NCBI GenBank assembly: GCA_902806175.1
Contig: CADCVQ010000037.1
Location: 1-32,337 of the forward strand
Length of the DNA: 32,337 nucleotides
From: an uncultured Solirubrobacteraceae bacterium
Lineage (GTDB): Bacteria > Actinomycetota > Thermoleophilia > Solirubrobacterales > Solirubrobacteraceae
Direction of reading: 5' to 3'
Shown here: in pieces, positions 1 through 18,908 of the stretch
Layout of the letters: each line of letters begins with the position of its first letter
Position numbering within the stretch: position 1 is the stretch's first letter
Translations under genes and position numbers: made by a program
Notes under the pieces: model-generated
Database searches by the model: none
What the model saw: only the letters and a program-made list of their open reading frames with translations
What the model was told of the DNA's origin: nothing

Positions 1-838
1 CCCGGACGTGCACGCGGCCGGGCGTCGGCCCGGAGGCGTCGACGAACGCGCCGTCCACGACCTCGATCGCGCCGCCGGCCGGCGCGCCGCCCGCACCGCC
101 GGGGCTGGCGGGAAAGTTGACCACCGGGCCTCCCGGCGAATCGTCGATCGTCGCCTCCCCCGCGGCCGCCCCGGCGGCGACGAGGTTGACGGTGGCCGAG
201 GCGCTGAGCAGTCGGCCCCCGCGGACCCGCACGTTGCCGCCGACGAGGGACAGCGACCGGCCGTTGTTGACGCCGAGCGACGCCCGGTCCAGCACGATCG
301 CGCCCGGCGTGCCGAGGAACCCGAAGGCGGCGGGCGCGCTCGTGGTCAGCACGCTCGCGCCGGGGGTGCGCGCGTGGAACCGGCCGTCGGAGCCGAGGCG
401 AACGTAGTCGGCGGACGTGACGGTGAACGAGCCGTTGACGCGCAGCGACGCGCCCGGCCCGAACACGACGCCGTCCGGGTTGATCAGGTACAGGTCGGCC
501 CCCGGGATGGCGCAGACCAGCTCGCCGTTGACCGACGACGGCCCGCCTCCGGTGACGCGCGCGAGGATACGCCCGACGGAGTCCGGCCCTTGGAACTCGA
601 CGGAGGTGCCGCCGGCCACGTCGAACCGGCTGAAGCTGTGGAACAGGTTCGGCCCCGCGCTCGCGCCCGCGGAAGCCGGCACGACGACCCGGGGCCCCGG
701 CAGGGTCCCCGCCGGCCCGAGCGACCCGTCCAACACCACCTGCCCCGACGCCGTGCCGGTCAGGCAGCACACGCCCCCGGCTGCCAGCACCCGCATGAAC
801 GACCCGTCCCGGCGTCCCCGGCGTCCCCAGAATGTCAT
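1..838 (-). CDS. Two-partner-secretion exoprotein, N-terminal TPS domain (3' end outside window)
   Basis: The minus-strand frame is open from an ATG at 838 to the window edge, about 279 residues. After a short basic N-terminus (possible inner start ATG at 796) comes a signal-like stretch, VLAAGGVCCLTGTASG. Then follow hallmarks of the filamentous haemagglutinin TPS (haemagglutination activity) domain: NLFHSFSRFDV, the INPDGVVFGPGA motif and a Gly/Val/Ser-rich beta-helix pattern (for example FGFLGTPGAIVLD). In this family the TPS domain directs secretion through an outer-membrane TpsB pore and is followed by a long beta-helical passenger; the rest is beyond position 1. The sequence just before the start has an AAGG that could serve as a ribosome site. 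Such a protein implies a diderm cell, which does not fit the actinobacterial genes after 4690. No TpsB partner is seen in the window. Confidence 0.85.
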   Translation of the reverse strand, partial: MTFWGRRGRRDGSFMRVLAAGGVCCLTGTASGQVVLDGSLGPAGTLPGPRVVVPASAGASAGPNLFHSFSRFDVAGGTSVEFQGPDSVGRILARVTGGGPSSVNGELVCAIPGADLYLINPDGVVFGPGASLRVNGSFTVTSADYVRLGSDGRFHARTPGASVLTTSAPAAFGFLGTPGAIVLDRASLGVNNGRSLSLVGGNVRVRGGRLLSASATVNLVAAGAAAGEATIDDSPGGPVVNFPASPGGAGGAPAGGAIEVVDGAFVDASGPTPGRVHVR

Positions 839-1277
839 GCCCTTGCCCACGCCGGCAGCTTACCCATGCGCCTCGCCTTTTGGCCAGCGCGGGCGCATTC
901 CAGCCAGCGACAGTCGTCACATTGCGTTGGTCTGCTGAACTCCCCGCCGTCCGGCGCGACGGGGACGCTGCCAGGCTGCTTGCGGTTTCACAGACGGGAG
1001 CGCGGTTTGGACGCGTCCGTCGCGAGGGGACTGCGAAACTGCAGGCGGCCGACCTGCGGGTCCGCCGTACGGCACGCGGGGCGAGGTTTCGGCAGGGCAG
1101 GACCCCCGCTTCTCCGTGACGCTGGCAGGACGCGCGCGTGTCACGACCGAGCTTCCACAAACAGGGGACGTGATCCGCGGCACCTCGCCGGCCACCGCCC
1201 GGTTGCCCTGCCCGTCAAAAGTCATGCCCCCGGCCCGCTGGTTCCGATAACCAGGGTCGGGGAAGCGAGGGCGGTGC
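839..1277. other. Intergenic region between divergent genes
   Basis: About 440 bases separate the divergent exoprotein gene and the small gene at 1278. Long open frames cross it on both strands but their products are Arg/Ala/Pro-rich and look like GC-driven shadows. I see no RNA gene. The only structured element I can point to is the inverted repeat at 1238-1254. Confidence 0.5.
1238..1254 (+). promoter_or_regulatory. Inverted repeat CTGGTT-N5-AACCAG with a CCGATAA core
   Basis: The arms CTGGTT and AACCAG are perfect and flank CCGAT. The sequence TCCGATAA across the spacer and right arm matches 7 of 8 bases of the flagellar sigma-28 minus-10 element (GCCGATAA). A minus-35-like AAAAG lies at 1217-1221 but about 21 nt away, longer than the usual ~15. 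It sits 23 nt upstream of the small gene at 1278 in a flagellar neighbourhood. It could be an operator, a weak sigma-28 promoter, or chance. Confidence 0.3.
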
Positions 1278-1535
1278 ATGCGTGACCTGAGCGTGGTGGT
1301 GGAGAACCTGCGGCTCGTGCAGCGGGCGCGGCGGCGGTTCATGGAGCTGTCGGAGCTGGAGCGGGACTGCATCAACCCCATGCTCGACCGCATGGCCGAC
1401 GACCTCCAGCAGGCAAGCGCCGCCACGGCGGCGGGGTCGGCCACGCGAGACGAGGGCGATGGCCCGGCCGGCAGCGGCACGGCCGGCCAAGGCAGCGAGG
1501 CCGGCCTCAACCCGCCGGCGGGGCCGGACGAATGA
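1278..1535 (+). CDS. Small hypothetical protein upstream of fliD
   Basis: This 85-residue protein begins at an ATG preceded by GAGG about 7 nt upstream. Residues 1-48 look helical and amphipathic (MRDLSVVVENLRLVQRARRR onward, with LSELERDC and MLDRMADDLQQ); residues 49-85 are a Gly/Ala/Pro-rich, probably disordered tail. I do not recognise the family. Its position 73 bases before fliD on the same strand suggests a flagellar role. Flagellar export chaperones such as FliT or FlgN are also small helical proteins, but no specific motif supports that assignment. Confidence 0.55.
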   Translation: MRDLSVVVENLRLVQRARRRFMELSELERDCINPMLDRMADDLQQASAATAAGSATRDEGDGPAGSGTAGQGSEAGLNPPAGPDE

Positions 1536-1538
1536 CGT

Positions 1539-1554
1539 TGGCACGGGTCCGGCA
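1539..1554 (+). promoter_or_regulatory. Possible sigma-54-type promoter for fliD
   Basis: TGGCACGGGTCCGGCA has the GG and GC dinucleotides at the spacing of the minus-24/minus-12 consensus (TGGCACG-N4-TTGCA) but with CG in place of the TT. Transcription would start near 1565, leaving a ~44-nt leader before fliD. In GC-rich DNA such a match can arise by chance. Confidence 0.3.
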
Positions 1555-1608
1555 CGCGGCGCGCGGGCAACCGCGCCTCGCGGCTAATGCCGGACGGACG
1601 GGCACCTT

Positions 1609-4600
1609 ATGGGCCGAATCACCTCTGGCGTCGGGCTGATCAGCGGGATCGACTCCCGCAGCATCATCGACCAGTTGATCTCCCTCGAGTCGCAGCCCAA
1701 GACGCGCCTCGAGGGCAAGATCGACGAGACCAACAAGGTCAAGCTCGCCTACACGGACCTCAGCACGCGCCTCGCCAGCCTCAAGCTCACCGGCACGCAA
1801 CTCAAGAAGCCGTCCACGTTTCAGGCCGCCACCACCACGAGCGGCGACGAGGACGTCCTCACCGCCACCGCCGCAAACGGGGCGGCCGTCGGCAACTACC
1901 AGTTCCAGGTCGCCCGCCTCGTCACCACCCAGCAGTCCGTCACCGGCGGGTTCGCCGACTTCGACAAGACCCGGCTCGGCGCCGGCTCCCTCACCATCGA
2001 GCAGGGCGGCGGCGAGCTGACCAACGAGACGCCCCTCTCCCAGCTCAACGGCGGCGCGGGCGTCCGGCGGGGGCTCTTCCGCATCACCGACCGCGCGGGA
2101 CAATCAGCCGTCATCGACGTCTCATCCGCGATCACCGTCAACGACGTCCTCAAGAAGATCAACACGAGCCTCGGCGTGTCCGTCCGCGCCAGCGCGGCGG
2201 GCGAGGGCATCACGCTCGCCGACGTCTCGGGCTCCACCGCCGGAAACTTCACCGTCCAGGACCTCGGCGACGGTGCCGCCGCCGCGGACCTCGGGCTCGT
2301 CGCCGACGTGGCCGCCTCCACCATCACGGGCGCCGACGTCAACAGCCTCGGCTCCGCAACCGTTCTCGACACGCTCAACGACGGCCGGGGCGTCCGCCGG
2401 GCCGCTACCGGCGCCGACTTCTCCGTAACCGTCGGCGGCTCAACCGTTAACGTCACCCTCGGCGCCGGCGCCCGCACGGCGGGCGACGTCATCGCCACCG
2501 TCAACGCCGCCGGCGGCGCGAACCTCAAGGCCGAGGCCGTCGCGGGCGCCAATGGCCTGCGCCTCACCGATGCCAGCGGCGGCGGGCGGACGATCACCGT
2601 CACCGCCCTGAACGGCTCCAAGGCCGCCGCCGACCTCGGCATCGCCACCGCCCCCGCGGGCGTCGCGGGCGGCACGCTGGACGGCACGCCGTTGATCGCC
2701 GGTCTCAACACCGTGCTCCTGTCCTCGCTGAAGGGCGGCGCGGGCCTCACCCTCGGCAGCATCGAGATTACCGACCGCGCCGGCGCCACCGCCACGGTCG
2801 ACCTCAGCGCCGCCCGCTCCGTCCAGGACGTGCTCGACGCGATCAGCAACGCGCCCGGCGTCGCCGTCACCGCCCGCCTGAAGAAGAGCGGAAACGGCAT
2901 CGAGGTCGCCGACAGCTCCGGCGGCACGGGCAACCTCGTCATCGCCGACGCGGCGGGCGGCGCCTCCGCCACCGACTTGGGCCTGGCCGGCACGTTCTCC
3001 ACCGCCGTCCCCGCCGCCCAAGGCGCCAACCTCCAGCGGCAGTGGGTGACGGAGAACAACACGCTCGCCAGCTACAACGGCGGGCGGGGCGTGGCGCGGG
3101 GCCAGTTCAAGATCACCAACGCAGCCGGCGTCAGCGCCACCGTCGACCTCTCCCAGGGCGACGAGGTCCGCCTCGCCGACGTCATCGCCGAGGTCAACGC
3201 CAAGGGCATCAACGTCACCGCCTCGATCAACGCCAACGGCGACGGCCTGCTCCTGACCGACGCCAGCGGCGGCGCGGGCAAGATGAAGGTCGAGGAGGTC
3301 GACGCCTCCACCGCCCGCGACCTCGGCCTCCTCGGCGTCGCCGGCGCCACCCCCACCATCGACGGCTCGTTCGAGCGCACGATCGAGGTCGCCGCCGACG
3401 ACACGCTGGCGACCCTCCAGACGAAGATCAACGACCTCGGCTTCGGCGTCAGCGCCTCGATCGTCAACGACGGCTCGGGCGCCGCGCCGTTCCGCCTGTC
3501 GCTGTCGTCGCGCAACCCCGGGCGCAGCGGGCGCGCCGTCTTCGACGCCGGCGCGCTGACCGCGCTCCAGACCTCCAACCTCGTCGAGGGGCAGGACGCC
3601 GCCGTCTTCCTCGGCAGCGACCAGGCCGCCAACCCCCTGCTCATCACCGCCGGCTCGAACCAGCTCAGCGGCGTCGTCAAGGGCGTGACGATCGACCTGC
3701 ACGGCGTCGGCGACCGCCCGGTCAGCCTCAGCGTCACGCGCAGCGTCGACGCGGTCGTCGAACAGATGACGAAGTTCACCGAGGGCTTCAACGAGCTCGT
3801 CGACAAGATCAAGGAGCTGACGAAGTTCGACCCCCAGACCGGCGAGCGCGGCCTGCTGCTCGGCGACACGACCGTCCAGACGGTCGAGCAGAACATCTAC
3901 GCCGTGTTCAGCAGCGTCGTGGGCGGCGGCGGGCGCGTGCGGGTCGCGGGCGACGTGGGGCTGAAGCTGGCCGAGGGCGCCAAGCTCGAGTTCGACGAGA
4001 CGAAGTTCCGCGACGCCTACGCCGCCGACGCCACCGCCGTCGAGACGCTGTTCAGCCGCCCCCCGGCGGGCCTGAACGAGACGACGCCGCTGTCGCAGCT
4101 CAACGCCGGCCGGGGCGTGCGTGCGTCGACGGTCGGGGCCGACTTCTCGATCTCGGTGAAGGACGGCACGACGTTCGAAGTCACGCTCGGCGACGCCGCC
4201 ACGTTCGGCGCCGTGCTGGCGAAGATCAACGCCGCCGGCGCCGGCAAGGTCACCGCCGCCCTCGGCGACAACGGCGCCAGCCTGAAGATCACGGATAACA
4301 CCACGACCGGCGCCGCCACGCTGAAGGTGGTCGCCCTCAACGGCTCCCCCGCCAAGAGCGATTTAGGCATCCCCGACGCCGGCCCCGGCGTCCTCGCCGG
4401 CCGCACGATCCTCCCCCCCTCCCCCACCGCCCGCCTGAACGCCGGCGCCGGGCTCGGACACCTGCTTGAAAACAGCTTCGCCCGGCTGATCGACCCCGTC
4501 GACGGCGCGATCAGCAAGGAAAACAAGCAACTCGACGCCAAGAACCAGGCGTTCGAAAGCCGGATCACCGCGCTGGACAAACTGATCGCCAGCAAACGCG

Positions 4601-4839
4601 CGCGGTTAGAGCGCCAGTTCGCCAACATGGAGTCGGTCTTAGCCAACCTCCAAGGCCAGCAGCAGTCCCTCAGCGCCTTCCAAACCCTGCCGACGCCGTC
4701 GCGAAGGTGCGCCGCGAGCGGCGCGAGTACCCCGGCGCGACGCGCGAGGTCTATCTCAAGGGGACCGACCGCTGGCAGGTCTCCTACTTCGCCAAGACCA
4801 AGCCCGGTACGCCGCGCAAGGAGATCGCGCAGGTGCTGA
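1609..4839 (+). CDS. fliD: Flagellar hook-associated protein 2 (filament cap) FliD, enlarged; C-terminus altered by the join
   Basis: FliD caps the growing flagellar filament and guides flagellin folding. The N-terminus MGRITSGVGLISGID and the following coiled region (residues ~1-115) are typical FliD_N. Residues ~145-600 hold four Flagellin_IN-type repeats of ~110-118 residues, starting near 145, 255, 373 and 489; each begins with an LNGGRGV-like motif and contains a GDGLLLTDASGG-like motif. FliD_C starts near residue 669 (FNELVDKIKELTKFD) and is interrupted near residue 831 by a fifth repeat. The final coiled coil runs to about LQGQQQSLSAFQTL (residue ~1027). Most FliD proteins are 450-700 residues. 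After ~4688 the frame gives an Arg/Ser/Pro-rich tail that is a shadow of the next gene's frame, so the last ~50 residues are not FliD and only a few true C-terminal residues are lost. Upstream lies a small gene and a possible sigma-54 site. Confidence 0.9.
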   Translation: MGRITSGVGLISGIDSRSIIDQLISLESQPKTRLEGKIDETNKVKLAYTDLSTRLASLKLTGTQLKKPSTFQAATTTSGDEDVLTATAANGAAVGNYQFQVARLVTTQQSVTGGFADFDKTRLGAGSLTIEQGGGELTNETPLSQLNGGAGVRRGLFRITDRAGQSAVIDVSSAITVNDVLKKINTSLGVSVRASAAGEGITLADVSGSTAGNFTVQDLGDGAAAADLGLVADVAASTITGADVNSLGSATVLDTLNDGRGVRRAATGADFSVTVGGSTVNVTLGAGARTAGDVIATVNAAGGANLKAEAVAGANGLRLTDASGGGRTITVTALNGSKAAADLGIATAPAGVAGGTLDGTPLIAGLNTVLLSSLKGGAGLTLGSIEITDRAGATATVDLSAARSVQDVLDAISNAPGVAVTARLKKSGNGIEVADSSGGTGNLVIADAAGGASATDLGLAGTFSTAVPAAQGANLQRQWVTENNTLASYNGGRGVARGQFKITNAAGVSATVDLSQGDEVRLADVIAEVNAKGINVTASINANGDGLLLTDASGGAGKMKVEEVDASTARDLGLLGVAGATPTIDGSFERTIEVAADDTLATLQTKINDLGFGVSASIVNDGSGAAPFRLSLSSRNPGRSGRAVFDAGALTALQTSNLVEGQDAAVFLGSDQAANPLLITAGSNQLSGVVKGVTIDLHGVGDRPVSLSVTRSVDAVVEQMTKFTEGFNELVDKIKELTKFDPQTGERGLLLGDTTVQTVEQNIYAVFSSVVGGGGRVRVAGDVGLKLAEGAKLEFDETKFRDAYAADATAVETLFSRPPAGLNETTPLSQLNAGRGVRASTVGADFSISVKDGTTFEVTLGDAATFGAVLAKINAAGAGKVTAALGDNGASLKITDNTTTGAATLKVVALNGSPAKSDLGIPDAGPGVLAGRTILPPSPTARLNAGAGLGHLLENSFARLIDPVDGAISKENKQLDAKNQAFESRITALDKLIASKRARLERQFANMESVLANLQGQQQSLSAFQTLPTPSRRCAASGASTPARRARSISRGPTAGRSPTSPRPSPVRRARRSRRC
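4685..4695. other. Probable artificial or recombinational junction between two genomes
   Basis: To the left the reading frame is typical FliD C-terminal coiled coil. To the right, in a different frame, a conserved-looking membrane protein begins mid-sequence (ADAVAKVRRERREYPG) with no upstream promoter, ribosome site or N-terminus. No insertion sequence, integrase, tRNA or repeat marks the point. Gene content changes from diderm and flagellar to actinobacterial here. Confidence 0.7.
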
Positions 4840-6179
4840 TCGACGACCGCAGCGCGCGCGTGCTCGAGGCGTGGACGGACTACCAGGTGCCGTGGTCGAT
4901 GGCGCGCGGCTACTCCGGCGCGTTCGGGCGCATCGTCAACGCGCCGTGGGTGTGGATCCCGCTCGCCGTGCTGTTCGTCGCGCCGTTTCTGCGCCCGCCG
5001 TGGCGGATGCTGCACCTCGACCTGCTCGTCCTGAGCGCCTTCTCGGCGTCGACGGCGTTCTTCAACGCGGCCCGCGTCGACGTGTCGGTGCCGCTCGTCT
5101 ATCCGCTGCTCGGCTACCTGCTGGTGCGGATGCTGTGGATCGGCCTGCGCCACGGCGAGAGCGCACACGACGAGGCGCGCCGGCCGCTGCGCCTGCTCGT
5201 GCCCGTGAGCTGGCTGGCGATCGCGGTGATCTTCCTCGTCGGCTTCCGCGTCGCGCTCAACGTGACGAACTCCAACGTCATCGACGTCGGCTACGCGGGC
5301 GTCATCGGCGCCGACCGGATCGTGGACGGCGATCCGCTGTACGGAGAGTTCCCCAGCGACAACGCGATGGGCGACACGTACGGCCCCGTCGTCTACCTCG
5401 CCTACGCGCCCTTCGAGCAGGCACTGAAGTGGAGCGGCAATTGGGACGACCTGCCGGCAGCGCACGCGGCGGCGATCGCGTTCGACCTGCTCGCGCTGGC
5501 GCTGTGCTTCCTGATCGGGCGCCGCGTCCGCGGGCCGGATCTCGGCGTGCTGCTCGCCTACGCCTGGGCGACCTACCCCTTCACGCTCTACGCGCTCATG
5601 TCGAACTCCAACGACGCGCTCGTTGCGGCGCTCGTGCTGGCGGCCGTCTGGGCCGCCGGCAGCGCACCCGCGCGCGGCGCGTTCGTCGCGCTCGCGGGCC
5701 TGACGAAGTTTGCGCCGCTGGCCCTCGGCCCGCTCTTTGCGCTGCATCGAGGTGGACGGCCGCGCCCGCGGCTGCGCTCGCTGCTGGCGTACGCGGTCGG
5801 CTTCGCGGCGGCGGTGCTGCTCGCCTTCGCGCCGCTGGTGGGCGAGCTGAGCCTGCGCGACTTCTGGGATCACACGATCGCCTTCCAGGCGCAGCGCGGC
5901 TCGCCGTTTTCGATCTGGGGGCTCTACGACCCCGACGTCACGTGGCTGAACTACGTCCAGCGCGCGCTGCAGGTCGCCGCCGCGCTGCTGGCGATCGCCC
6001 TGGCGTTCGTCCCGCGGCGGCGCGATCTCGTCGGGTTGGCCGCCCTCGGCGCGGCGATCCTGATCGCGCTGCAGCTCGGCGTGTCGCACTGGTTTTACCT
6101 GTACATCCCGTGGTTCTTCGGCCTCGTCATGATCGCGCTGCTCGGACGCTCGGCGATGCCTGCGCCCACGCGCGCATGA
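4692..6179 (+). CDS. Polytopic membrane protein, GT-C/GT87 glycosyltransferase-like (5' end lost at junction)
   Basis: The frame is open from the junction; the first usable start codon is a GTG at 4707, but the sequence before it (ADAVAK) reads as the same protein, so the true start is missing. The first ~75 residues form a soluble PepSY-like segment (TREVYLKGTDRWQVSYFAK ... ARVLEAWTDYQV), in which the lost N-terminus would begin. About ten hydrophobic helices follow, with extracytoplasmic loops rich in Asp, Gly and Tyr, such as DGDPLYGEFPSDN and TYGPVVYL. This pattern resembles polyprenyl-phosphate-sugar-dependent GT-C transferases that build cell-envelope glycans. Its stop overlaps the start of the next gene (ATGA), so the two are probably co-translated. 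Donor and acceptor cannot be told from sequence. Confidence 0.75.
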   Translation, partial: DAVAKVRRERREYPGATREVYLKGTDRWQVSYFAKTKPGTPRKEIAQVLIDDRSARVLEAWTDYQVPWSMARGYSGAFGRIVNAPWVWIPLAVLFVAPFLRPPWRMLHLDLLVLSAFSASTAFFNAARVDVSVPLVYPLLGYLLVRMLWIGLRHGESAHDEARRPLRLLVPVSWLAIAVIFLVGFRVALNVTNSNVIDVGYAGVIGADRIVDGDPLYGEFPSDNAMGDTYGPVVYLAYAPFEQALKWSGNWDDLPAAHAAAIAFDLLALALCFLIGRRVRGPDLGVLLAYAWATYPFTLYALMSNSNDALVAALVLAAVWAAGSAPARGAFVALAGLTKFAPLALGPLFALHRGGRPRPRLRSLLAYAVGFAAAVLLAFAPLVGELSLRDFWDHTIAFQAQRGSPFSIWGLYDPDVTWLNYVQRALQVAAALLAIALAFVPRRRDLVGLAALGAAILIALQLGVSHWFYLYIPWFFGLVMIALLGRSAMPAPTRA

Positions 6180-7396
6180 CGGCCGGCTTCGAGCGCCTGC
6201 AGTTGGCGCTGGCCGGCGTTGCGCTGCTGGCGCTCTACGGCGTCGCGACGACCGTCGGGCCGTTTTCCGACATCACCGTCAACGACCTCTACGTGTACGG
6301 CGTGTACGCCGACCTGCTGCACGACGGCCAGCTGCCGTACGTCGATTTCGGCTTCGAGTACCCGCCGCTGGCGGCGATCGCGCTCTGGCTGGCGGGGGTG
6401 CCCGGCCTCGACGACCCGACGTACGCGGTGAGCTTCGCCGTGCTCATGGGAATCTGCCTCGTCGCGGCGCAGCAGCTCGCCGCGCGCCTCGCCGGCCGCG
6501 GCCGCACGCGCCTGACGGTGGCCTGGCTGTTCGTCGCGACGCCGCTGCTGATCGGCGCGTCGCTGCGCACGCACTTCGACGCGTTGCCGATCGCGATTGC
6601 GCTCGCGGGCCTGCTCGCGCTGAGCAACGACCGCGACGACCTCGGGTTCGCGCTACTCGGCGTCGGCACGATGACAAAGCTCTTTCCGGGCCTGCTCGCG
6701 GTGATCGCGCTGCTGTGGCTCGCCGGCCGCGGCGAGTGGCGCGCCGCGCTGCGCGGCGGGGCGATCTTTGCGGCGGTCGTCGTCGCGATCTCGCTGCCGC
6801 TGTCGGGGGCGGGCTACGTCGACTCCTTCGAGTTTCACCTCGAGCGCCCGGTGCAGATCGAGTCCTCCGCAGCGAGCGTGCTCTTCGCCCTGGGCGGGTC
6901 GGAGGTCACGGGCACGAACCTGCGGCCCGACCGCTTCAAGTCAAACGGCCTCGACGGCGGCCACGCCGACACCGTCGAGCGCGTCTCTCAGTTCCTGTTG
7001 ATCGTTGCACTGGCGTCGATCGTCTGGCTTGCCGCCCGGCAGCCCGGCGCGCGCCACCTCGTGCTCTGCGGCTTCGCCGCGCTGCTGGCGTTCGTCACAC
7101 TCGGCAAGGTCTTCTCGCCGCAGTACGTCATCTGGCTTGCGCCGTTCGCGGCGCTCGCCTGGGTCTGGGGCCTGCGCGCGGTTGCGCTGCTGACGGCCGC
7201 CGCGATCGTGCTCACGCACGTCGAGTTCCCCAGCCGCTACTTCGACCTCATCAACGAGCAGACCGACGTCGTCGCGATCGTCGCCGCGCGCAACGCGCTG
7301 CTGCTCGTGGCGCTGCTCGTGCTGACGAGGTCGTTGCTCGTCCCGGGCCGACCAGATCATGATCCCAGTGGCAGCTGGGAGCAGCGGTCCGCCTGA
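6176..7396 (+). CDS. GT87/GT-C-like membrane glycosyltransferase
   Basis: This 406-residue protein starts at an ATG overlapping the previous stop (ATGA). It has about ten hydrophobic helices. An acidic loop after TM1 (ITVNDLYVYGVYADLL) is followed by a motif usual in GT87-type mannosyltransferases, PYVDFGFEYPPLAAIALW. Other loop motifs are GTMTKLFPG and KVFSPQYVIWLAPF, also typical of that superfamily, where the catalytic Asp lies in the first extracytoplasmic loop. It probably transfers a hexose from a polyprenyl-phosphate donor outside the membrane. It is the partner of the upstream membrane protein and may act in the same envelope glycan step. The last ~25 residues are polar. Confidence 0.8.
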   Translation: MTAGFERLQLALAGVALLALYGVATTVGPFSDITVNDLYVYGVYADLLHDGQLPYVDFGFEYPPLAAIALWLAGVPGLDDPTYAVSFAVLMGICLVAAQQLAARLAGRGRTRLTVAWLFVATPLLIGASLRTHFDALPIAIALAGLLALSNDRDDLGFALLGVGTMTKLFPGLLAVIALLWLAGRGEWRAALRGGAIFAAVVVAISLPLSGAGYVDSFEFHLERPVQIESSAASVLFALGGSEVTGTNLRPDRFKSNGLDGGHADTVERVSQFLLIVALASIVWLAARQPGARHLVLCGFAALLAFVTLGKVFSPQYVIWLAPFAALAWVWGLRAVALLTAAAIVLTHVEFPSRYFDLINEQTDVVAIVAARNALLLVALLVLTRSLLVPGRPDHDPSGSWEQRSA

Positions 7397-7444
7397 GCCC
7401 GGCTCACGCTCGCGGCGCGCGGGTGGCGCCGGTGGTGCAGGGTG

Positions 7445-7460
7445 TGCGAGCATGCTCGCA
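7445..7460 (+). promoter_or_regulatory. Perfect 16-bp palindrome at the start of the following gene
   Basis: TGCGAGCATGCTCGCA is a perfect dyad with no spacer, and its last base is the A of the downstream ATG. Its position fits an operator or a structure controlling translation; chance is possible in this GC-rich context. Confidence 0.35.
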
Positions 7461-8083
7461 TGAAGCTCTTCGGCCGCAACGGAGAGGTCGGTCAACCGCC
7501 GCCGGCGAGCGCGCGCACGCACGCCCCGCGGCTCACCCCGGATCAGAACGGCGCGATCCGCGAGCTCAACGGCCTCGTCATGGACGGGATGCGCGACTGC
7601 CCGATCGAGAGGAGCACGCTCGGCCTCCTGCAGGTGGGCCTGCCGCACCTCACGCAGCGCGAATGCTCCGCGGAGGCGGTCGTCGCCGGACAGACGGCCG
7701 CCCGGCTCGGCTATCTCGCGCGATCCGCGGAGTACGCGATGTTCGAGGCGGCACAGGAGCTCGACGACGGGCTGCTCGACACGCTCGCCGAGCGCCTCGA
7801 CGCCGCCGGATCCGGCACGGACGCGATCCAGGACGCCGTCGCCGAGCTCGCCGCCGAGCTGGCGCTCGCGGAGCCGATGGACGCGCAGGCCGGAGACGAC
7901 GGCGCGCTGTGGCTGCTGCCCGGCGCCGGCGGCGAGCTGCGCTCCGCGCTGCGCGACCGGCTTGCCCGGGCGTTGAGCCGGCCGGAGGACGTGAGCCTCT
8001 ACGAGCTGCGACGGACGTGGATGTACGGCTACTTCCTGCGCAGTCTGCAGGAGTGCTTCGAGGACGAGGACATGTCGGGCTGA
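7460..8083 (+). CDS. Hypothetical helical protein
   Basis: This is a 207-residue soluble protein with no signal peptide or membrane segment. The ATG at 7460 (MKLFGRNGEVG) is preferred over an in-frame GTG at 7442 because the intervening sequence lies in a palindrome. After a Pro-rich linker (residues ~10-25) the rest looks alpha-helical and Leu/Ala/Glu-rich, with blocks such as LTPDQNGAIRELNGLVMDGM and YELRRTWMYGYFLRSLQECF. Two Cys residues occur in the first half (DCPIERS, RECSAEAV). I do not recognise the family. It stands alone between a glycosyltransferase operon and a convergent phosphoesterase gene. Confidence 0.65.
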   Translation: MKLFGRNGEVGQPPPASARTHAPRLTPDQNGAIRELNGLVMDGMRDCPIERSTLGLLQVGLPHLTQRECSAEAVVAGQTAARLGYLARSAEYAMFEAAQELDDGLLDTLAERLDAAGSGTDAIQDAVAELAAELALAEPMDAQAGDDGALWLLPGAGGELRSALRDRLARALSRPEDVSLYELRRTWMYGYFLRSLQECFEDEDMSG

Positions 8084-8102
8084 CCCAGCCGTGCCGACGG
8101 GC

Positions 8103-8123
8103 GAGTCGTCCGCGGCCCGACTC
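8103..8123. terminator. Hairpin between convergent genes
   Basis: GAGTCG and CGACTC form a 6-bp stem with a 9-nt loop in the 38-bp gap, overlapping the minus-strand stop codon at 8122. There is no T-run on either side, so it could end transcription from both directions only weakly. Confidence 0.35.
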
Positions 8124-8913
8124 AGCGCGCCGGCAGCAGCACCTGCTCGATCGCGTCCGCCTTCAGCGTCTGCGAGCAGCGCACCAGCACGCCCATGAGC
8201 CAGGGATCGTCCTCCGACGTCTCGTAGCGCTCGTTCATGTGCGTGACGAAGCCACGGATCGACTGCTCCTTGCGCACGCCGATGACGCCGCCGCGCGGGC
8301 CGGTCATGCCGACGTCGGTGATGTAGGCCGTGCCGCCCGGCAGCACGCGACCGTCGGCGGTCGGCACGTGGGTGTGGGTGCCGACGACCGCGCTGACGCG
8401 GCCGTCGAGGTACCACCCGAGGGCGACCTTCTCGCTCGTCGCCTCGGCGTGGAAGTCGACGAGCACGTGGTCGACACCTGCCTCGAGCTCGCCCAGCGCG
8501 GCATCGATGTCGGTGAAGGCCGGGCGGCCGGCGCGCAGGAAGAGGTTGCCGCTGAGGTTCACGACGCCGAGCCGCAGCCCGTCGTTCTCGACGACGCAGA
8601 CGCCGTGGCCGGGCTGGCTGCGCAGGTAGTTGTAGGGGCGCAGGATCGCCTCGTGCTCATCGAGGTAGCCGTAGATCTCGCGCCGGTGGTAGGCGTGGTT
8701 GCCGAGCGTGATGACGTCGACGCCGGCGGCGAACAGCTCGTCGGCGATCTTCGGCGTGATCCCCAGGCCGCCGGCGGCGTTCTCGCCGTTGACGACGACG
8801 AACGTCGGCGCGTGGCGTTCGCGCAGCACCGGCAGCAGCCCGAGCAGGGTATGCCTGCCGAGCGAGCCGACGATGTCACCGATGAACAGGATGCTCGCGA
8901 TGGCCTCGGACAC
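8122..8913 (-). CDS. YmdB/TIGR00282-family metallophosphoesterase
   Basis: The product is 263 residues from a GTG at 8913, the family's usual length. An upstream in-frame start at 9024 would run through the divergent gene's start and adds a sequence with no family character. The metal-binding motifs of the calcineurin-like superfamily are present in order: GDIVG (residues ~12-16), NGEN (~42-45), GNHAYH, DFHAEATSEK and GTHTHVPTAD. Members such as Bacillus YmdB hydrolyse 2',3'-cyclic nucleotides and affect biofilm and RNA metabolism; substrate here is inferred. In many genomes the gene neighbours rny (RNase Y), which is not present here. Only 22 bp separate it from the divergent AI-2E-type gene, so the two probably share a control region. 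Confidence 0.88.
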   Translation of the reverse strand: MSEAIASILFIGDIVGSLGRHTLLGLLPVLRERHAPTFVVVNGENAAGGLGITPKIADELFAAGVDVITLGNHAYHRREIYGYLDEHEAILRPYNYLRSQPGHGVCVVENDGLRLGVVNLSGNLFLRAGRPAFTDIDAALGELEAGVDHVLVDFHAEATSEKVALGWYLDGRVSAVVGTHTHVPTADGRVLPGGTAYITDVGMTGPRGGVIGVRKEQSIRGFVTHMNERYETSEDDPWLMGVLVRCSQTLKADAIEQVLLPAR

Positions 8914-8919
8914 GGGACA

Positions 8920-8925
8920 TACTCT
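8920..8925 (+). promoter_or_regulatory. Minus-10 box TACTCT for the AI-2E-family gene
   Basis: TACTCT fits TAnnnT and ends 10 nt before the ATG at 8936, so the transcript would have almost no leader. No clear minus-35 is seen. AGGGG directly abuts the ATG and is too close to act as a normal ribosome site. Confidence 0.5.
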
Positions 8926-8935
8926 GACGCAGGGG

Positions 8936-10216
8936 ATGGCTGATCCGGTGTCTGACACCCCGCATGTGCCGCCGCCCACGTCGGGCGGGCGGGTCGTCGT
9001 CGCGCGGTGGGTGCAGCTCGTCATGCTGCCGCTCGCGGTGCTCGCGCTCTACGCGCTCGCCAGCGCGGCCGGCGTCGTGCTGCTGCTGTTCATCGTCGCG
9101 GCCGTCATCGCGCTGATCCTCAACCCGCTCGTCGTGCTGGTGCAGCGCACGCGCGCGCCGCGCACAGCGGCCGTGATCGCCGTCTACGCGGCGTTCTTCA
9201 CGCTGCTGCCGTTTCTCGGATTCCTCGCCGCCGGGCCGGTCGCCGACCAGGCGACGTCGTTTGCCAACGACGTGCCGGGGCTCGTCGACGACGCGAGCCT
9301 GCTGCTCGACGACGTCCAGGAGTTCTTCGACGACAACGGCATCAACGTGCAGATCAAGGGCGAGAACGACAGTGCCCTGACGAACCTGCAGGACCGGATC
9401 GTCGAGGGGTCGGGGGAGATCGTGACGGTCACCGGCGAGCTGCTGCGCCTCTTCATCGAGCTGTCCTTCCACGTGATCCTCGTGATCGTCCTGTCGATCT
9501 ACATGCTCATCTACGCGCCGCGGATCGGCGAGCTCGTGCGGGCGGCGATGCCGCCGGGCGACGGCACGCCGCAGGACGACTACCCGACGCGTGTGCAGCG
9601 CGCGGTCTTCGGCTACGTCCGCGGCCAGCTGCTGTTCAGCGCGATCATGGGCTTCTCGGCGGGCGTCAGCCTGTGGATCTTCGGCACGCTCGGGATCTTC
9701 CCCGAGGGGCGCACGTACGCGTTCGCCTTCGGCCTGTTCTTCGGGGTCATGGAGCTGGTGCCGTACGTCGGCCCCGTGCTCGGCGCCCTGCCGCCGGTGA
9801 TCGTCGCGCTCGTGCAGGATCCGCTGACCGCGGTCTGGGTCGCGTTGCTGTTCGTCGCGCTGCAGCAGCTCGAGGGCCACGTCGTGGCGCCGAACGTCTT
9901 CGGCCGCACGCTGCGGCTCAACCCGCTTCTCGTGATCTTCGCGCTGCTGCTGGGTGGGCAGATCTACGGCTTCGTCGGGGCGCTCGTGGCGCTGCCGATC
10001 GCGGCGGTGCTGCGCGAGACGGTCGTGTACCTCAAGGACCATCTGGTGTTCGAGCCGTGGGGCACGGGCTCGCCGCTGCTGATCGGCGAGGGCGCGCCGC
10101 CTGCACCGGTGGTGGCGCCGCCGGTGGCCGAGCCGCCGGAGGAACAGCCGACGGAGCGGGTGCCGAGCGCGGCGGGGGTGAGGCCGCGTCCGCTCCGAGA
10201 GGAGCGTGGCGAGTAA
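8936..10216 (+). CDS. AI-2E family transporter (UPF0118 permease)
   Basis: The protein has 426 residues from the ATG at 8936. It has the layout of the AI-2E/UPF0118 family: two helices at the N-terminus (about residues 20-65), a third near 80-100, a soluble segment (VPGLVDDASLLLDDVQEF, QIKGENDSALTNLQDRI) and a C-terminal bundle of four or five helices. That bundle holds the family motifs VELVPYVGP-like (MELVPYVGPVLGALPP), LQQLEGHVVAPNVFG and LNPLLVIFALLLGGQIYG. Members export AI-2, auxin-like compounds or act in Na+/H+ exchange, so the substrate is unknown. The last ~50 residues are Pro/Glu-rich and probably disordered. A long hairpin spans its stop codon. Confidence 0.9.
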   Translation: MADPVSDTPHVPPPTSGGRVVVARWVQLVMLPLAVLALYALASAAGVVLLLFIVAAVIALILNPLVVLVQRTRAPRTAAVIAVYAAFFTLLPFLGFLAAGPVADQATSFANDVPGLVDDASLLLDDVQEFFDDNGINVQIKGENDSALTNLQDRIVEGSGEIVTVTGELLRLFIELSFHVILVIVLSIYMLIYAPRIGELVRAAMPPGDGTPQDDYPTRVQRAVFGYVRGQLLFSAIMGFSAGVSLWIFGTLGIFPEGRTYAFAFGLFFGVMELVPYVGPVLGALPPVIVALVQDPLTAVWVALLFVALQQLEGHVVAPNVFGRTLRLNPLLVIFALLLGGQIYGFVGALVALPIAAVLRETVVYLKDHLVFEPWGTGSPLLIGEGAPPAPVVAPPVAEPPEEQPTERVPSAAGVRPRPLREERGE

Positions 10217-10246
10217 GTGCTCGGATGGTGAGCACCTTTCGCCACG
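10205..10246 (+). terminator. Two-part hairpin over the stop codon
   Basis: CGTGGCGA (10205-10212) pairs with TCGCCACG (10239-10246) and GTGCTC (10217-10222) with GAGCAC (10230-10235), giving 8 + 6 bp with a small internal loop and a 7-nt apical loop. There is no following T-run. The TAA stop lies in the internal loop. Confidence 0.5.
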
Positions 10247-10344
10247 ACCCCGCAGCGACTCGTCCGCGAGGGAGTATCGCCGCCCGCGTCCCGGCGTCCG
10301 CCCGAGGCGCGTTGCAACGACGTGAGCCGGACTGCGCGCGCAGG

Positions 10345-10350
10345 TACCCT
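10345..10350 (+). promoter_or_regulatory. Minus-10 box TACCCT for hemB
   Basis: TACCCT ends 6 nt before the hemB ATG, which predicts a leaderless message. The upstream gap (10247-10344) holds no gene; it contains TTGCAACGAC at 10312-10321, a 10-mer repeated upstream of qcrA. Confidence 0.55.
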
Positions 10351-10356
10351 TCCTCC

Positions 10357-11328
10357 ATGGCCTTCCCCGCAACGCGCCTGCGGCGCCTGCGCGCCACGCC
10401 GGTCCTGCGCGAGCTCGTCCGAGAGACCCGGCTGAGCCCGGCGGACATGGTCCTGCCGCTGTTCGTGCAGGCGGGCGACACGCGGCGCACGCCGATCTCC
10501 TCGCTGCCCTCGATCGACCGCCTCTCGATCTCCGCCGCCGTCGAGGAGGCCGGCGCGGCCGCCGCGCTGGGGCTGCCCGCGGTCCTGCTGTTCGGCATCC
10601 CCGAGCACAAGGACGCCGACGGGACGGGCGCCTACGACGACGAGGGGATCGTCCAGCTCGCGACGCGCGCGATCAAGGACGCCCACCCCGACCTCGTCGT
10701 GATGACCGACGTGTGCCTCTGTGAGTACACCGACCACGGCCACTGCGGCCTGCTGCGCGCCGACGGCTGCGTCGACAACGACCCGAGCGTCGAGCTGATC
10801 GCGCGTGCCGCCGTCTCGCACGCGCGCGCGGGCGCCGACGTCGTCGCGCCCAGCGACATGATGGACGGGCGCATCGGCGCCGTCCGCGCCGCGCTCGACG
10901 ACGAGGGCTTCGGCGACACGCCGATCGTCGCCTACAGCGCGAAGTTCGCCTCGGCCTTCTACGGCCCGTTTCGCGAGGCCGCGGGCTCGGCGCCCGCGTT
11001 CGGCGACCGCCGCGCCTACCAGATGGACCCCGCCAACGGCGACGAGGCGCTGCGCGAGGCGCTGCTGGACGTGCAGGAGGGCGCCGACGTCGTGATGGTC
11101 AAGCCCGCGCTCGCCTACCTCGATGTCATCCTCCGCGTCAAGGACGCCACGCATCTGCCCGTCGCCGCCTACAACGTCAGCGGCGAGTACGCCATGATCA
11201 AGGCAGCCGCGGCGGCGGGAGCGCTCGACGAGCGTGCCGCGGTGCTGGAGACCCTGACGTCGATCCGCCGCGCGGGCGCGGACATCGTCATCACCTACCA
11301 CGCGAAGGACGCTGCTGGATGGCTGTGA
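10357..11328 (+). CDS. hemB: Delta-aminolevulinic acid dehydratase (porphobilinogen synthase)
   Basis: HemB condenses two 5-aminolevulinates to porphobilinogen in the cytoplasm. The protein is 323 residues, normal for the family. The two Schiff-base lysines are visible in AYSAKFAS (K196) and MVKPALAYLD (K249). A cysteine cluster of the zinc-dependent type is present, DVCLCEYTDHGHCG (C120, C122, C130). The start is fixed by the leaderless promoter and by the usual N-terminus, RLRRLRATPVLRELVRET. The next gene overlaps its end by 10 bases, and hemL follows, so these form an operon for tetrapyrrole synthesis. Confidence 0.97.
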   Translation: MAFPATRLRRLRATPVLRELVRETRLSPADMVLPLFVQAGDTRRTPISSLPSIDRLSISAAVEEAGAAAALGLPAVLLFGIPEHKDADGTGAYDDEGIVQLATRAIKDAHPDLVVMTDVCLCEYTDHGHCGLLRADGCVDNDPSVELIARAAVSHARAGADVVAPSDMMDGRIGAVRAALDDEGFGDTPIVAYSAKFASAFYGPFREAAGSAPAFGDRRAYQMDPANGDEALREALLDVQEGADVVMVKPALAYLDVILRVKDATHLPVAAYNVSGEYAMIKAAAAAGALDERAAVLETLTSIRRAGADIVITYHAKDAAGWL

Positions 11329-12437
11329 CCCCACGTAACGTCGACCGGAGGACGCCGCTTGCGGCGGCCGAAGGGCGAAATGACAAAGTTCGGTCTCGCA
11401 AGGATGGCGCCGCCGCGCCACTCGACGACGTCGACCGCAAGGTCCTGAACCTCATGCAGGGCAAGTTCCCGCTCGAGCCCAAGCCGTTTGCGGCCGTCGC
11501 GACGCTTGCGGAGCTCACCGAGGCCGAGGTCATGGCACGCGTGCAGCGGCTGCTCGACGACCGCATCATCCGCCAGGTCACGCCGATCTACGACACGCGC
11601 GCGCTCGGCTACGGCTCGATGCTCGTCGCCGCGAAGGTAGATCCCGAGCATCCATGGCGCGCCGCGAAGATCATCAACTCGCATCCCGGCGTCAGCCACA
11701 ACTACCTGCGAAACCACGAGTTCAACATGTGGTTCACGCTCGCGGTCGAGCGCGACTCAAAGCTCGGCCTGCAGGGCACCCTCGACGTCCTGCAGGAGCT
11801 GACCGGCGCCGAGTCGATCCGCCAGCTGCCGACGCTCAAGCTCTTCAAGATCCGGATGGACCTCGAGATGCAGGGCGACACGAAGTCGCTGTCGACCGAG
11901 GGCGTCGCCGAGGCGCCCGTCGACCTCGAGGGCGTGCCCTACGACGAGTTCGACGTCGCCGTCATCCGCGCGACGCAGGGCGACATGTCGGTCGTCTCCG
12001 AGCCCTACGCGCCCGCCGCCGCGCAGCTGGGGATCACGCAGGCCAAGCTGCTCGAGCACATGGCCGCCATGAAGGAGCGCGGCATCCTGCGCCGCGTCGC
12101 CGCGATCCTCTTTCACCGCCGCGCCGGCTTCAGCGCCAACGGCATGGGCGTGTGGGTCGTCCCGGAGGAGAAGATCGAGGAGTACGGCCCGCGGATGGCC
12201 TCCTTCCGCGGCATCTCGCACTGCTACCAGCGCCCGACCTACGCGGACTGGCCCTACTCGATCTTCACGATGGCCCACGGCCGCTCCAAGGAGGAGTGCG
12301 ACGCGATCCTCGACACGATCGCCGCCGAGTTCGACATCTCCGAGCGCGCCACGCTGTACTCCTCGACGGAGTTCAAGAAGATCCGCCTCCTGTACTTCAC
12401 CGAGGAGTTCAAGGACTGGGAAGCCGAGAACGGGTGA
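11319..12437 (+). CDS. Fused siroheme decarboxylase-like protein (AhbA-AhbB / NirDL type, AsnC/Lrp fold)
   Basis: This 372-residue protein contains two AsnC-like halves. The N-half (about 36-180) has a winged-helix segment (LDDVDRKVLNLMQGKF) and the motif VSHNYLRNHEFNMWFTL. The C-half (about 205-372) has its own helix-turn-helix segment (YDEFDVAVIRATQGDM) and ISHCYQRPTYADWPYSIFTM. The NYxR-x-x-E-x-N-x-W and HCYQRPxxxDWPY motifs are hallmarks of siroheme decarboxylases (NirD/L/G/H, AhbA/B), which convert siroheme to 12,18-didecarboxysiroheme in the alternative heme or heme d1 pathways. AhbA and AhbB are often separate chains. It is usually annotated as an AsnC/Lrp regulator by fold, but placement between hemB and hemL favours an enzyme. 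AhbC and AhbD are not in this window, so the pathway is not proven. The ATG at 11319 overlaps hemB. Confidence 0.82.
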   Translation: MAVTPRNVDRRTPLAAAEGRNDKVRSRKDGAAAPLDDVDRKVLNLMQGKFPLEPKPFAAVATLAELTEAEVMARVQRLLDDRIIRQVTPIYDTRALGYGSMLVAAKVDPEHPWRAAKIINSHPGVSHNYLRNHEFNMWFTLAVERDSKLGLQGTLDVLQELTGAESIRQLPTLKLFKIRMDLEMQGDTKSLSTEGVAEAPVDLEGVPYDEFDVAVIRATQGDMSVVSEPYAPAAAQLGITQAKLLEHMAAMKERGILRRVAAILFHRRAGFSANGMGVWVVPEEKIEEYGPRMASFRGISHCYQRPTYADWPYSIFTMAHGRSKEECDAILDTIAAEFDISERATLYSSTEFKKIRLLYFTEEFKDWEAENG

Positions 12438-12453
12438 TCGTTCCCGCCCGCCC

Positions 12454-13755
12454 GTGACGATCTCGCTGCGTGACACGCGCTCGGCAGAGCTCTACGCCCG
12501 CGCGCTCACGTACCTGCCCGGCGGGGTGAACTCGCCGGTGCGCGCGATGCGCGCGATCGGCCGCGACCCGCTGTTCGTGCAGCGCGGCGACGGCGCCGAG
12601 TTGTTCGACGCGGACTCGAACTCCTACGTCGACTGGGTCTGCTCGTGGGGCCCGCTGATCTGCGGCCACGCGCACCCGCAGATCGTCGCCGCGATCACCG
12701 CGGCGGTCGCGCGCGGTACGAGCTTCGGAGCGCCGACGGCGGGCGAGGTCGATCTCGCCGAGGAGGTCAGCCGCCGCGTGCCAGGCGTGCAGGTGCTGCG
12801 CATGACCTCGTCGGGCACCGAGGCCGCGATGAGCGCGATCCGCCTGGCCCGCGCGGCGACGGGCCGCACGAAGATCCTGAAGTTCGCCGGCGCCTACCAC
12901 GGCCACGTCGACGGCCTGCTCGCCGACGCCGGCAGCGGCCTGGCGACGCAGGGCATCCCGGCCTCGCCGGGCGTTCCGCAGGAGGTGGCGGCGGCCACGA
13001 TCGTCGTGCCCTGGAACGACCACGACGCCCTCCGCGCCGCGACCGAGAAGCACGAGCTGGCCGCGATCCTCGCCGAGCCGCTGCCGGCCAACATGGGCGT
13101 CGTGGCGCCGGCGGAGGGCTTTCTCGAGCTGCTGCGCTCACGCGCCGACGAGACCGGCGCGCTGCTCGTCTTCGACGAGGTCATCTCCGGCTTTCGCGTC
13201 GCGCGCGGCGGCGCGCAGGAGCTCTTCGAGATCACGCCCGACCTCACGATGATGGGCAAGGTCATCGGCGGCGGCCTGCCGGCGGCCGCGTACGGCGGCC
13301 GCCGCGACCTGATGGAGCGCATCGCTCCGGCCGGCGACGTCTACCAGGCGGGCACGCTGTCGGGCAACCCGCTCGCCGTCGCCGCCGGCCTCGCGACGCT
13401 CGCGCTGCTCGAGGGCGAGCAGCCCTACGCCAACCTCGCCGCGACGACGACCGCGCTCGCCGAGGGGCTCACCGACGCCGCGCGCTCGGCGGGCGTGCAG
13501 GACCACGTCCAGATCACGGCGCGCACCGGGCTGCTGACGGTGTTCTTCAGCCCCACGCCGGTGACCGACTACGCCGGCGCGCGGGCCTGCGACCACAACG
13601 CGTACGCGGCCTGGTGTCGTGGCCTGCTCGCGCGCGGCATCTATACCCCCGCGTCGCAGTACGAGGCCTGGTTTCCCTCGCTCGCGCACACGCCCGAGCA
13701 GATCGAGCGCACGACCGCCGCGGCCGCCGCCGCATTCGCGGAGATCGAGCTGTGA
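12454..13755 (+). CDS. hemL: Glutamate-1-semialdehyde 2,1-aminomutase
   Basis: HemL makes 5-aminolevulinate from glutamate-1-semialdehyde in the C5 route, using PLP. The 433-residue length is normal. Characteristic motifs are YLPGGVNSPVRA near the N-terminus, SSGTEAAMSAIRLAR, KFAGAYHGHVDGLL, FDEVISGFRVA and MMGKVIGGGLP, whose lysine (K269) would hold PLP. It starts at a GTG 16 nt after the previous stop. The gene overlaps the next one by GTGA, so translation is probably coupled. Confidence 0.97.
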   Translation: MTISLRDTRSAELYARALTYLPGGVNSPVRAMRAIGRDPLFVQRGDGAELFDADSNSYVDWVCSWGPLICGHAHPQIVAAITAAVARGTSFGAPTAGEVDLAEEVSRRVPGVQVLRMTSSGTEAAMSAIRLARAATGRTKILKFAGAYHGHVDGLLADAGSGLATQGIPASPGVPQEVAAATIVVPWNDHDALRAATEKHELAAILAEPLPANMGVVAPAEGFLELLRSRADETGALLVFDEVISGFRVARGGAQELFEITPDLTMMGKVIGGGLPAAAYGGRRDLMERIAPAGDVYQAGTLSGNPLAVAAGLATLALLEGEQPYANLAATTTALAEGLTDAARSAGVQDHVQITARTGLLTVFFSPTPVTDYAGARACDHNAYAAWCRGLLARGIYTPASQYEAWFPSLAHTPEQIERTTAAAAAAFAEIEL

Positions 13756-14291
13756 GCGACCCGGACGCCGTCACGCGCCTGCGCGCGGCGATCCGCGCCG
13801 GCGCGGGGCCGCTGGCCGACGCCGTGAGCGCGGCCCCGGCCACCTACGCGATGGGCGAGGGCGGCCTCGATCCCGTCGCGCTCGCCGCCTCCGGGCCGCA
13901 CGCGGCGCAGCACCGCGACGACGTCGAGCTCGCCGTCAGCGCGATCCTCGAGGGCTGCCTGCTGCACTACGGCCAGCCGCGCGCGCTGCAGATCGGCGAC
14001 CCCGACCTCGCGCTGCTCGCGGGCGATCGCCTCTACGCGCTGGGTCTCGCGCGGCTGGCGTCGATCGGCGACCTCGGCGCGATCGCCCAGCTCGCCGACA
14101 TCATCGCGCTCAGCGCGCAGGCGCACGTCGCGCGTGACGAGGCCCTCGCGCTGGCGGCGTGGCACGCCGGCGCTGCGGCGATCGGCTGGGGCGAGAACGC
14201 GCCGACGGCGGCGGCGAAGGCACGTGCCCGGGAGGGTGACCCGGGCGCCGCCGAGGCGCTGCACGCCGCCGCGTCGCAGACCGTCGCATGA
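13752..14291 (+). CDS. Uncharacterised alpha-helical protein in the heme/respiration cluster
   Basis: The product has 179 residues from a GTG that overlaps the hemL stop (GTGA). It is Ala/Leu-rich, with no membrane segment or signal peptide. The central part, LLAGDRLYALGLARLASIGD followed by an AQLADIIA-type helix, resembles the middle helices of trans-polyprenyl synthases (often LLxGDxLxxxA), but neither Asp-rich DDxxD motif is present. One possibility is a non-catalytic partner of the prenyl synthase encoded at 17340, by analogy with the small subunit of heterodimeric heptaprenyl synthases; this is inference. No family is recognised with confidence. It lies in the same strand order as hemB-hemL and just before the Rieske gene. 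Confidence 0.65.
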   Translation: MSDPDAVTRLRAAIRAGAGPLADAVSAAPATYAMGEGGLDPVALAASGPHAAQHRDDVELAVSAILEGCLLHYGQPRALQIGDPDLALLAGDRLYALGLARLASIGDLGAIAQLADIIALSAQAHVARDEALALAAWHAGAAAIGWGENAPTAAAKARAREGDPGAAEALHAAASQTVA

Positions 14292-14353
14292 CACATGTTT
14301 GCAACGACCCGCACAGCGGCGCGTCTGGCGCATCGCAAGAGTCCGCGGGACGC

Positions 14354-14359
14354 TAGATT
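14354..14359 (+). promoter_or_regulatory. Minus-10 box TAGATT for the qcr operon
   Basis: TAGATT ends 7 nt before the GTG at 14367 and stands out as AT-rich in GC-rich surroundings. It predicts a leaderless qcrA transcript and supports the GTG over the upstream ATG at 14295. Confidence 0.6.
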
Positions 14360-14366
14360 TCACTTC

Positions 14367-15044
14367 GTGGCTCGCGAGCGCAAACAGCCCAAGAAGAAGC
14401 TGACGACCGAAGAGGCGCAGATCCCGGGCGCCTTCGAGGGCGAGACGGTCAGCCGCCGGCGCTTCATGACGGGCACCGCACACGCCGCGAGCGGGATCGC
14501 CGTGGCGGCCTTCACGCTGCCCGCCGTCGGCTTCGCCGTCGCGCCCGTCTTCGACAAGCAGGAGCCGCGCTGGGAGACGGTCGGTCCCGTCGGCGACTTC
14601 CCCGACGACACGTACGTCCCGCGGACGCTGACGCTCGTGCGCGGGATCGGCGACGTCGGCAAGTCGACGGTCTACATCCGCAAGTACAACACCGACCTCG
14701 ACGACGAGGAACGCGACGAGTACAACGAGTTCATCGCGATCTCCACGCGCTGCATGCACCTCGGCTGCCCGGTCCGCTTCGTCGCCGCCTCGGAGCGTTT
14801 CATCTGCCCGTGCCACGGCGGCGTCTACGACTTCCAGGGCAAGGTCGACGGCGGTCCGCCGGTGCGCCCGCTGGATCGCTTCTACACGCGTATCCGCAAC
14901 GGCAACCTCGAGGTCGGACCGCGCTTCAGCGTCAACTCCGAGCTGAAGCGCTTCTCACCGCGCGACCCCGGGATGCCGCTCGACGGCATCGGCCAGTACC
15001 TCTACCCGGCGCGCCCGAGCGTCCGCAAGCTCCCCAACACCTAA
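14367..15044 (+). CDS. qcrA: Menaquinol:cytochrome c reductase Rieske iron-sulfur subunit
   Basis: From GTG 14367 the product is 225 residues; an in-frame ATG at 14295 adds 24 residues but would lie upstream of the promoter. Residues ~29-36 (SRRRFMTG) resemble a twin-arginine signal and precede a hydrophobic anchor (~38-62), as in Tat-exported Rieske proteins. The 2Fe-2S ligands are in CMHLGC (C129, H131, disulfide C134) and CPCHGG (C147, H150, disulfide C149). The protein takes electrons from menaquinol on the outer face and passes them to cytochrome c. It is the first gene of an operon with cytochrome b and the subunit IV-cytochrome c fusion. tatA and tatC lie 4 kb downstream. Confidence 0.95.
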   Translation: MARERKQPKKKLTTEEAQIPGAFEGETVSRRRFMTGTAHAASGIAVAAFTLPAVGFAVAPVFDKQEPRWETVGPVGDFPDDTYVPRTLTLVRGIGDVGKSTVYIRKYNTDLDDEERDEYNEFIAISTRCMHLGCPVRFVAASERFICPCHGGVYDFQGKVDGGPPVRPLDRFYTRIRNGNLEVGPRFSVNSELKRFSPRDPGMPLDGIGQYLYPARPSVRKLPNT

Positions 15045-15048
15045 AGCC

Positions 15049-15852
15049 ATGGCCAACCTCAAGCCACCGCTCCCGCGCGCACTGCGCCCCAAGCCCAAGG
15101 GTCCCAGCGAGGACAACGGCAAGGCGAAGCCCGGCCGCAAGGAGAAGCTCGCCCAGAAGGGCATCTCCACGATCGACTGGATCGACGAGCGCACGGCGCT
15201 GTCCGGCGGCGCGCGCTGGGTGATGTTCCGCAAGATCCCGAGGGGGACGAACTGGTTCTACACGCTCGGCTCGGCGTCGTTGTTCGCATTCCTCTCGCAG
15301 GCCGTCACCGGCGTGATCCTCGCGATGTACTACGACCCGTCGGCGACGCGCGCCTATGAGTCGGTGCGCTACCTCACCAACGAGGTCTTCCTCGGCGAGT
15401 TCGTCCGCGGCATGCACAAGTGGGGATCGACGGTCATGGTGATCCTCGTCTTCCTGCACATGGGCCGCACGTTCTTCTACGGCGCCTACAAGTATCCCCG
15501 CGAGCTGAACTGGGTGATCGGCGTCGTCCTGCTGATCCTCACGCTGTTCATGTCCTTCACCGGCTACCTGCTGCCGTTTGACCAGCGCTCCTTCTGGGCC
15601 ACGACCGTCGGCGTCGCGATCAACGGAACCGGCCCGCTCGTGGGTCCCTACCTCAACGACTTCCTGCGTGCCGGCCCCGAGTTCGGCGTCACGACGCTCG
15701 CACGCTTCTACGCGCTGCACATGCTCGTCCTGCCCGGCGCCATGGCGGCGATGATCGGCGCGCACCTGTATCTCGTCGCGCGCCTCGGCACCACCGCGCC
15801 GCCGTGGTTGAAGGCCGACATCCCGGCCGACTCGCGCAAGGACGGCACATGA
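15049..15852 (+). CDS. qcrB: Cytochrome b6-type subunit of the menaquinol:cytochrome c reductase
   Basis: The 267-residue protein carries an N-terminal basic extension (~1-60) and four membrane helices, matching the N-terminal half of cytochrome b. Heme ligands are H123 and H137 in helix B (13 residues between) and H224 and H239 in helix D. The 14-residue gap in helix D is the b6-type spacing, against 13 in mitochondrial cytochrome b. The b6-type split is confirmed because the C-terminal half is encoded separately next door. It starts 4 nt after qcrA and overlaps the next gene by ATGA. It forms the quinol-oxidising core in the cytoplasmic membrane. Confidence 0.95.
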   Translation: MANLKPPLPRALRPKPKGPSEDNGKAKPGRKEKLAQKGISTIDWIDERTALSGGARWVMFRKIPRGTNWFYTLGSASLFAFLSQAVTGVILAMYYDPSATRAYESVRYLTNEVFLGEFVRGMHKWGSTVMVILVFLHMGRTFFYGAYKYPRELNWVIGVVLLILTLFMSFTGYLLPFDQRSFWATTVGVAINGTGPLVGPYLNDFLRAGPEFGVTTLARFYALHMLVLPGAMAAMIGAHLYLVARLGTTAPPWLKADIPADSRKDGT

Positions 15853-16592: not shown

Positions 16593-16662
16593 TGGCCCGC
16601 GGGCCCGCTCGTCAGGTCCCATCCTGAGCCAGCCCGACAGAGGAACGCTGCAGGAGCCGCAG

Positions 16663-17337: not shown

Positions 17338-17339
17338 CG

Positions 17340-18329: not shown

Positions 18330-18337
18330 CCGTCGCG

Positions 18338-18355
18338 TCGCCGCAAGCGCGGCGA
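18338..18355. terminator. Hairpin between convergent genes
   Basis: TCGCCGC and GCGGCGA form a perfect 7-bp stem with loop AAGC in the gap between the prenyl synthase gene and the minus-strand zinc-ribbon gene. No T-run follows on either side. Confidence 0.4.
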
Positions 18356-18373
18356 GTCCGGCGATGAGTCCGC

Positions 18374-18799: not shown

Positions 18800-18874
18800 G
18801 CCATGACGGAACTTGACAGTTCCCTATGAATGTCCAGAACACGTCCACGCGACAACTGCGCCAGACGGGCGCGG

Positions 18875-18880: not shown

Positions 18881-18908
18881 GTCGTCAACCAACCGTGAGG
18901 TGCTTTTC

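Follow-up and report, generated by a model that had tools for sequence, protein, structure and literature searches.

A probable false fusion of planctomycete-like and host-lineage DNA within fliD in a Solirubrobacteraceae draft contig

Does a contig in which fliD gives way, in mid-gene, to a membrane-protein gene that lacks its start represent one chromosome or the DNA of two organisms? The window (the whole stretch of DNA that was analysed, 32,337 b) is the entire contig C37 of the draft genome G000 (4.12 Mb in 183 contigs, completeness 97.08%, contamination 1.58%). The initial annotation proposed that two genomes had been joined inside fliD at position 4688, and our results indicate, with a probability of about 95%, that DNA of two organisms was falsely fused in this contig at 4688/4689. 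The features considered are the following.

1..4688, no strand assigned: left segment with a TPS-domain gene, a small ORF and a truncated fliD, Phycisphaerales-like and apparently foreign according to FliD identity, TPS distribution and tetranucleotide distance
2..850, minus strand: two-partner-secretion (TPS-domain) protein, N-terminal part, cut by the contig end (PF05860, E=2.9e-31)
1278..1535, plus strand: small ORF ahead of fliD, matching the position of the small ORF ahead of fliD in Phycisphaerales loci
1609..4689, plus strand: fliD (FliD_N and FliD_C domains), cut shortly ahead of its natural stop codon
4688..4689, no strand assigned: probable chimeric join, where the end of FliD homology abuts the start of membrane-protein homology
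4689..6179, plus strand: membrane protein without its N-terminal part, according to the overlap with contig C171 and the intact gene in 19 relatives
4699..28135, no strand assigned: right segment collinear with G001:C10 279449-258080 (blastn, 85-91%), continuing from the counterpart of C171

The join and the interrupted membrane-protein gene

Comparison with other FliDs showed that the match extended through codon 1027 (CTG, 4687-4689), and that beyond this codon the same frame became the Arg/Ser/Pro-rich shadow (PTPSRRCAASGASTPARRARS...) described initially, which ended with a stop codon (4837-4839). The membrane-protein frame lay two bases off the fliD frame and began to resemble its relatives at GCC-GAC (4689-4694), encoding Ala-Asp. 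The two homologies touched at 4688/4689, so that the proposed breakpoint was correct to about one base; the precision with which the join can be placed is about one to a few bases. Both fliD and the membrane-protein gene were cut at this point, where those of the relatives run on.

As the initial annotation had stated, the membrane protein started in mid-protein: its start codon and N-terminal part were absent at 4689, and the window encoded its C-terminal 495 residues. The N-terminal ~73 residues were on another contig of G000, C171 (42,965 b), and a DNA search of this genome with positions 4400-5000 showed that bases 1-242 of C171 overlapped window 4689-4930 with 97% identity, with 6 differences in the 230 bases past an anchor at 4701. 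The frame on C171 extended upstream to an ATG (MLRARGAACAAALLIVLLGAGAAAAQQ...), upstream of which lay genes for a GtrA-family protein and a phosphodiesterase-like protein, the latter name being read by eye from the sequence. The membrane protein was encoded by 53 of the 61 genomes of the related set. When the loci of 19 relatives were fetched, the homology continued in every case (19/19) without a break into the N-terminal part found on C171, with a phosphodiesterase-like gene among its 5' neighbours in nearly all of them and GtrA in most. None of these 19 relatives had fliD beside the membrane-protein gene, an order that had been named at the outset as evidence against a chimera.

A single 473-kb contig (C10) of the same-genus genome G001 contained the counterparts of C171:1-6741 (279218-285906) and of window 4699-28135 (279449-258080), end to end and in orientations that agree. 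Because they adjoin on one G001 contig, C171 and the window from 4689 onwards are natural neighbours. The true neighbour of the right side exists in the same assembly, which was demonstrated for the right side alone, and the right part belongs to G000's own lineage. Window 1-4689, searched against five same-genus genomes, gave just short, scattered DNA matches at chance level.

We found no direct or inverted repeats of at least 12 b in 4400-5000 around the join, no tRNA near it (the sole tRNA of the window is at 21123) and no plasmid match. The join had neither the repeats nor the tRNA by which a horizontally acquired island would be recognised, in agreement with the earlier remark that no mobile-element mark lies there. 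Shared sequence of sufficient length to explain a join by the assembler was not seen either. The exact 30-base junction sequence had no match in viral contigs, which are not expected to contain the junction.

Origin of the left segment

Residues 1-816 of the window FliD were 56-57% identical to the FliDs of two Phycisphaerales bacterium MAGs, and its N-terminal 820 residues were 42-60% identical to those of the fetched Phycisphaerales loci; identity to Phycisphaerales FliDs was at most 60%, and 22 of 26 Phycisphaerales genomes had a match. The FliD C-termini of relatives ended a few to ~25 codons past the window's cut. Most of the Phycisphaerales loci fetched had a small ORF 5' of fliD, and most had fliS directly 3' of it. 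The window resembled this arrangement in having the small ORF followed by fliD, as well as in the internal repeated modules present in both sets of FliDs, but its fliD was cut before the stop codon, fliS was absent, and the GC content of the left part was 72% as against 53-65% in those Phycisphaerales fliD loci with which it was compared. Judging from these similarities, the left 4.7 kb appears to come from a flagellated planctomycete of Phycisphaerales type. The comparison of both halves with their nearest taxa, proposed with the initial annotation, thus placed the left FliD closest to Phycisphaerales and the right part in collinearity with same-genus relatives. The left segment reached the contig end at base 1, and no genome near enough to reveal its own continuation was found.

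The TPS protein is a diderm-type feature. The only match to its secretion domain in G000 was window 2-850, and there was no match in any of 60 relatives of G000 or in the two Phycisphaerales genomes searched. Because these two genomes gave no match, the origin of the TPS gene can be given only as not of the host lineage.

Flagella had been taken initially as a feature that divides the two sides, and this proved insufficient on its own, because several relatives of the right side carried distant FliDs (27-36% identity across part of the protein) and FlhA was present in 3 of the 21 genomes checked. These distant FliDs led us to consider that the host was simply flagellated, against which stood the lack of any FlhA match in G000. 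The one FliD_N domain of G000 was that in the window. The separation of the two sides is based on closeness to Phycisphaerales, on the TPS secretion domain and on G000 having neither FlhA nor a second FliD. The distant FliD-like proteins were scattered among the host-lineage relatives (L027, on G003:C276, and L026-L034), one of these genomes being of the same genus; other same-genus genomes had no FliD match, which points to patchy flagella in the host group.

The composition of the left part was compared with 61 sampled segments of 4,689 b from G000, as the initial annotation had recommended. Its GC content (0.722) was nearly equal to the mean of these segments (0.713, sd 0.015). Its tetranucleotide frequency distance to the genome mean was 0.312, larger than that of all 61 own segments (mean 0.152, maximum 0.263), and this measure set the left part apart. 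The TETRA correlation (Markov-corrected tetranucleotide scores) was less decisive: at 0.637, with 10 of the 61 own segments lower, it did not by itself distinguish the left part. Segments L074 (C1), L076 (C20), L082 (C120) and L083 (C140) of G000 had TETRA correlations below that of the left segment, and could be further contamination or islands.

Within fliD, a module of ~124 residues (window 4069-4440), ~50% identical to an earlier FliD module, preceded the C-terminal coiled coil; this extra module occupied the same place in some Phycisphaerales FliDs and was missing in others (SJ572, SJ194). Of the last ~127 codons (4309-4689), 11.0% ended in A/T compared with 3.1% of the first 900 codons (for the 100-codon stretch richest in them, p 0.0065 by permutation), and the gene's three TTA codons all lay in this last part. 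A clear switch in codon endings of this kind was not seen in the five Phycisphaerales fliDs checked. It may represent a second mosaic point within the left segment, for example between two Phycisphaerales species, or chance.

Artefact, recombination or native arrangement

The overlap with C171, the collinearity with G001 and the membrane-protein gene intact in 19/19 relatives together support the chimera initially suspected, and an artefact of assembly or library is far more likely than recombination. The 6 differences in 230 overlap bases suggest that the locus exists as strain variants and that the assembly broke there. The locus would have been present in slightly differing strain versions, the assembly may have broken at the variant site, and the loose end could then have been joined to an unrelated molecule by the assembler, by scaffolding or through a chimeric library molecule or read. 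As GC is similar (72.2% compared with 71.3%) and just 4.7 of the 32 kb are foreign, binning would not have kept the fused contig apart from the majority.

A real illegitimate recombination, in which planctomycete DNA was put into the membrane-protein gene of one (minority) strain with truncation of both genes, would amount to an inter-phylum transfer of planctomycete flagellar and TPS-secretion DNA. We consider it very improbable. It draws on the fact that C37 and C171 overlap at 97% and not at 100%, suggesting two strain versions, one of which could differ structurally; it does not fit well with two genes interrupted in mid-frame, with the absence of both repeats at the join and a nearby tRNA, or with foreign DNA that extends to the contig end and shows no second junction to host DNA. 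Moreover, no other flagellar marker tested was found in G000, and the arrangement was absent from all relatives examined. Even less credence can be given to a native arrangement, that is, a flagellated bacterium in which fliD adjoins a membrane protein starting at GTG 4707. This codon is formally able to start the membrane-protein frame, and distant FliDs and FlhA do occur in some relatives, but the window FliD is near Phycisphaerales and not near the FliDs of these relatives, FlhA is unmatched in G000, and C171 and the relatives have the missing N-terminus along with other neighbours. The C171 overlap, together with the collinearity of G001 across the join point, effectively refutes this arrangement.

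A false fusion has known parallels. Draft genomes are known to contain chimerism that escapes marker-gene checks, and GUNC was made to detect errors such as inter-phylum chimeric contigs in metagenome-assembled genomes (PMC8201837). The contig shows the same pattern, with its genes split between two distant lineages, and its genome likewise passes the marker-gene checks; it differs in that the foreign part is small and the true neighbour, C171, is in the same bin and overlaps at the breakpoint. The chimeric contig is an ordinary phenomenon and most probably not a real biological feature, useful as a warning: a genome 97% complete and 1.6% contaminated still contains a contig from which one would ascribe to its lineage a two-partner-secretion protein, and also a Phycisphaerales-like flagellar cap. 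A planctomycete-like source should be assumed for findings in 1-4688 and the host genome for those at 4689 and beyond, and inferences that tie the left side to the right side should be dropped.

The right end of the contig

The end of the collinearity with G001 at 28135 raised the question of a second foreign join at the right end, which was dismissed because window ~28347-32240, most of the last 4.2 kb, was collinear (75%) with another same-genus genome, G002. Positions 28348-32337 constitute a variable region, collinear with G002 alone. They include a long secreted-looking protein with a collagen-like Gly-Pro stretch (28334-30691, minus strand; domain named by eye) and, from 30817 onwards on the plus strand, a repeat protein resembling RCC1-type repeats, also judged by eye, with several further DNA matches in G002.
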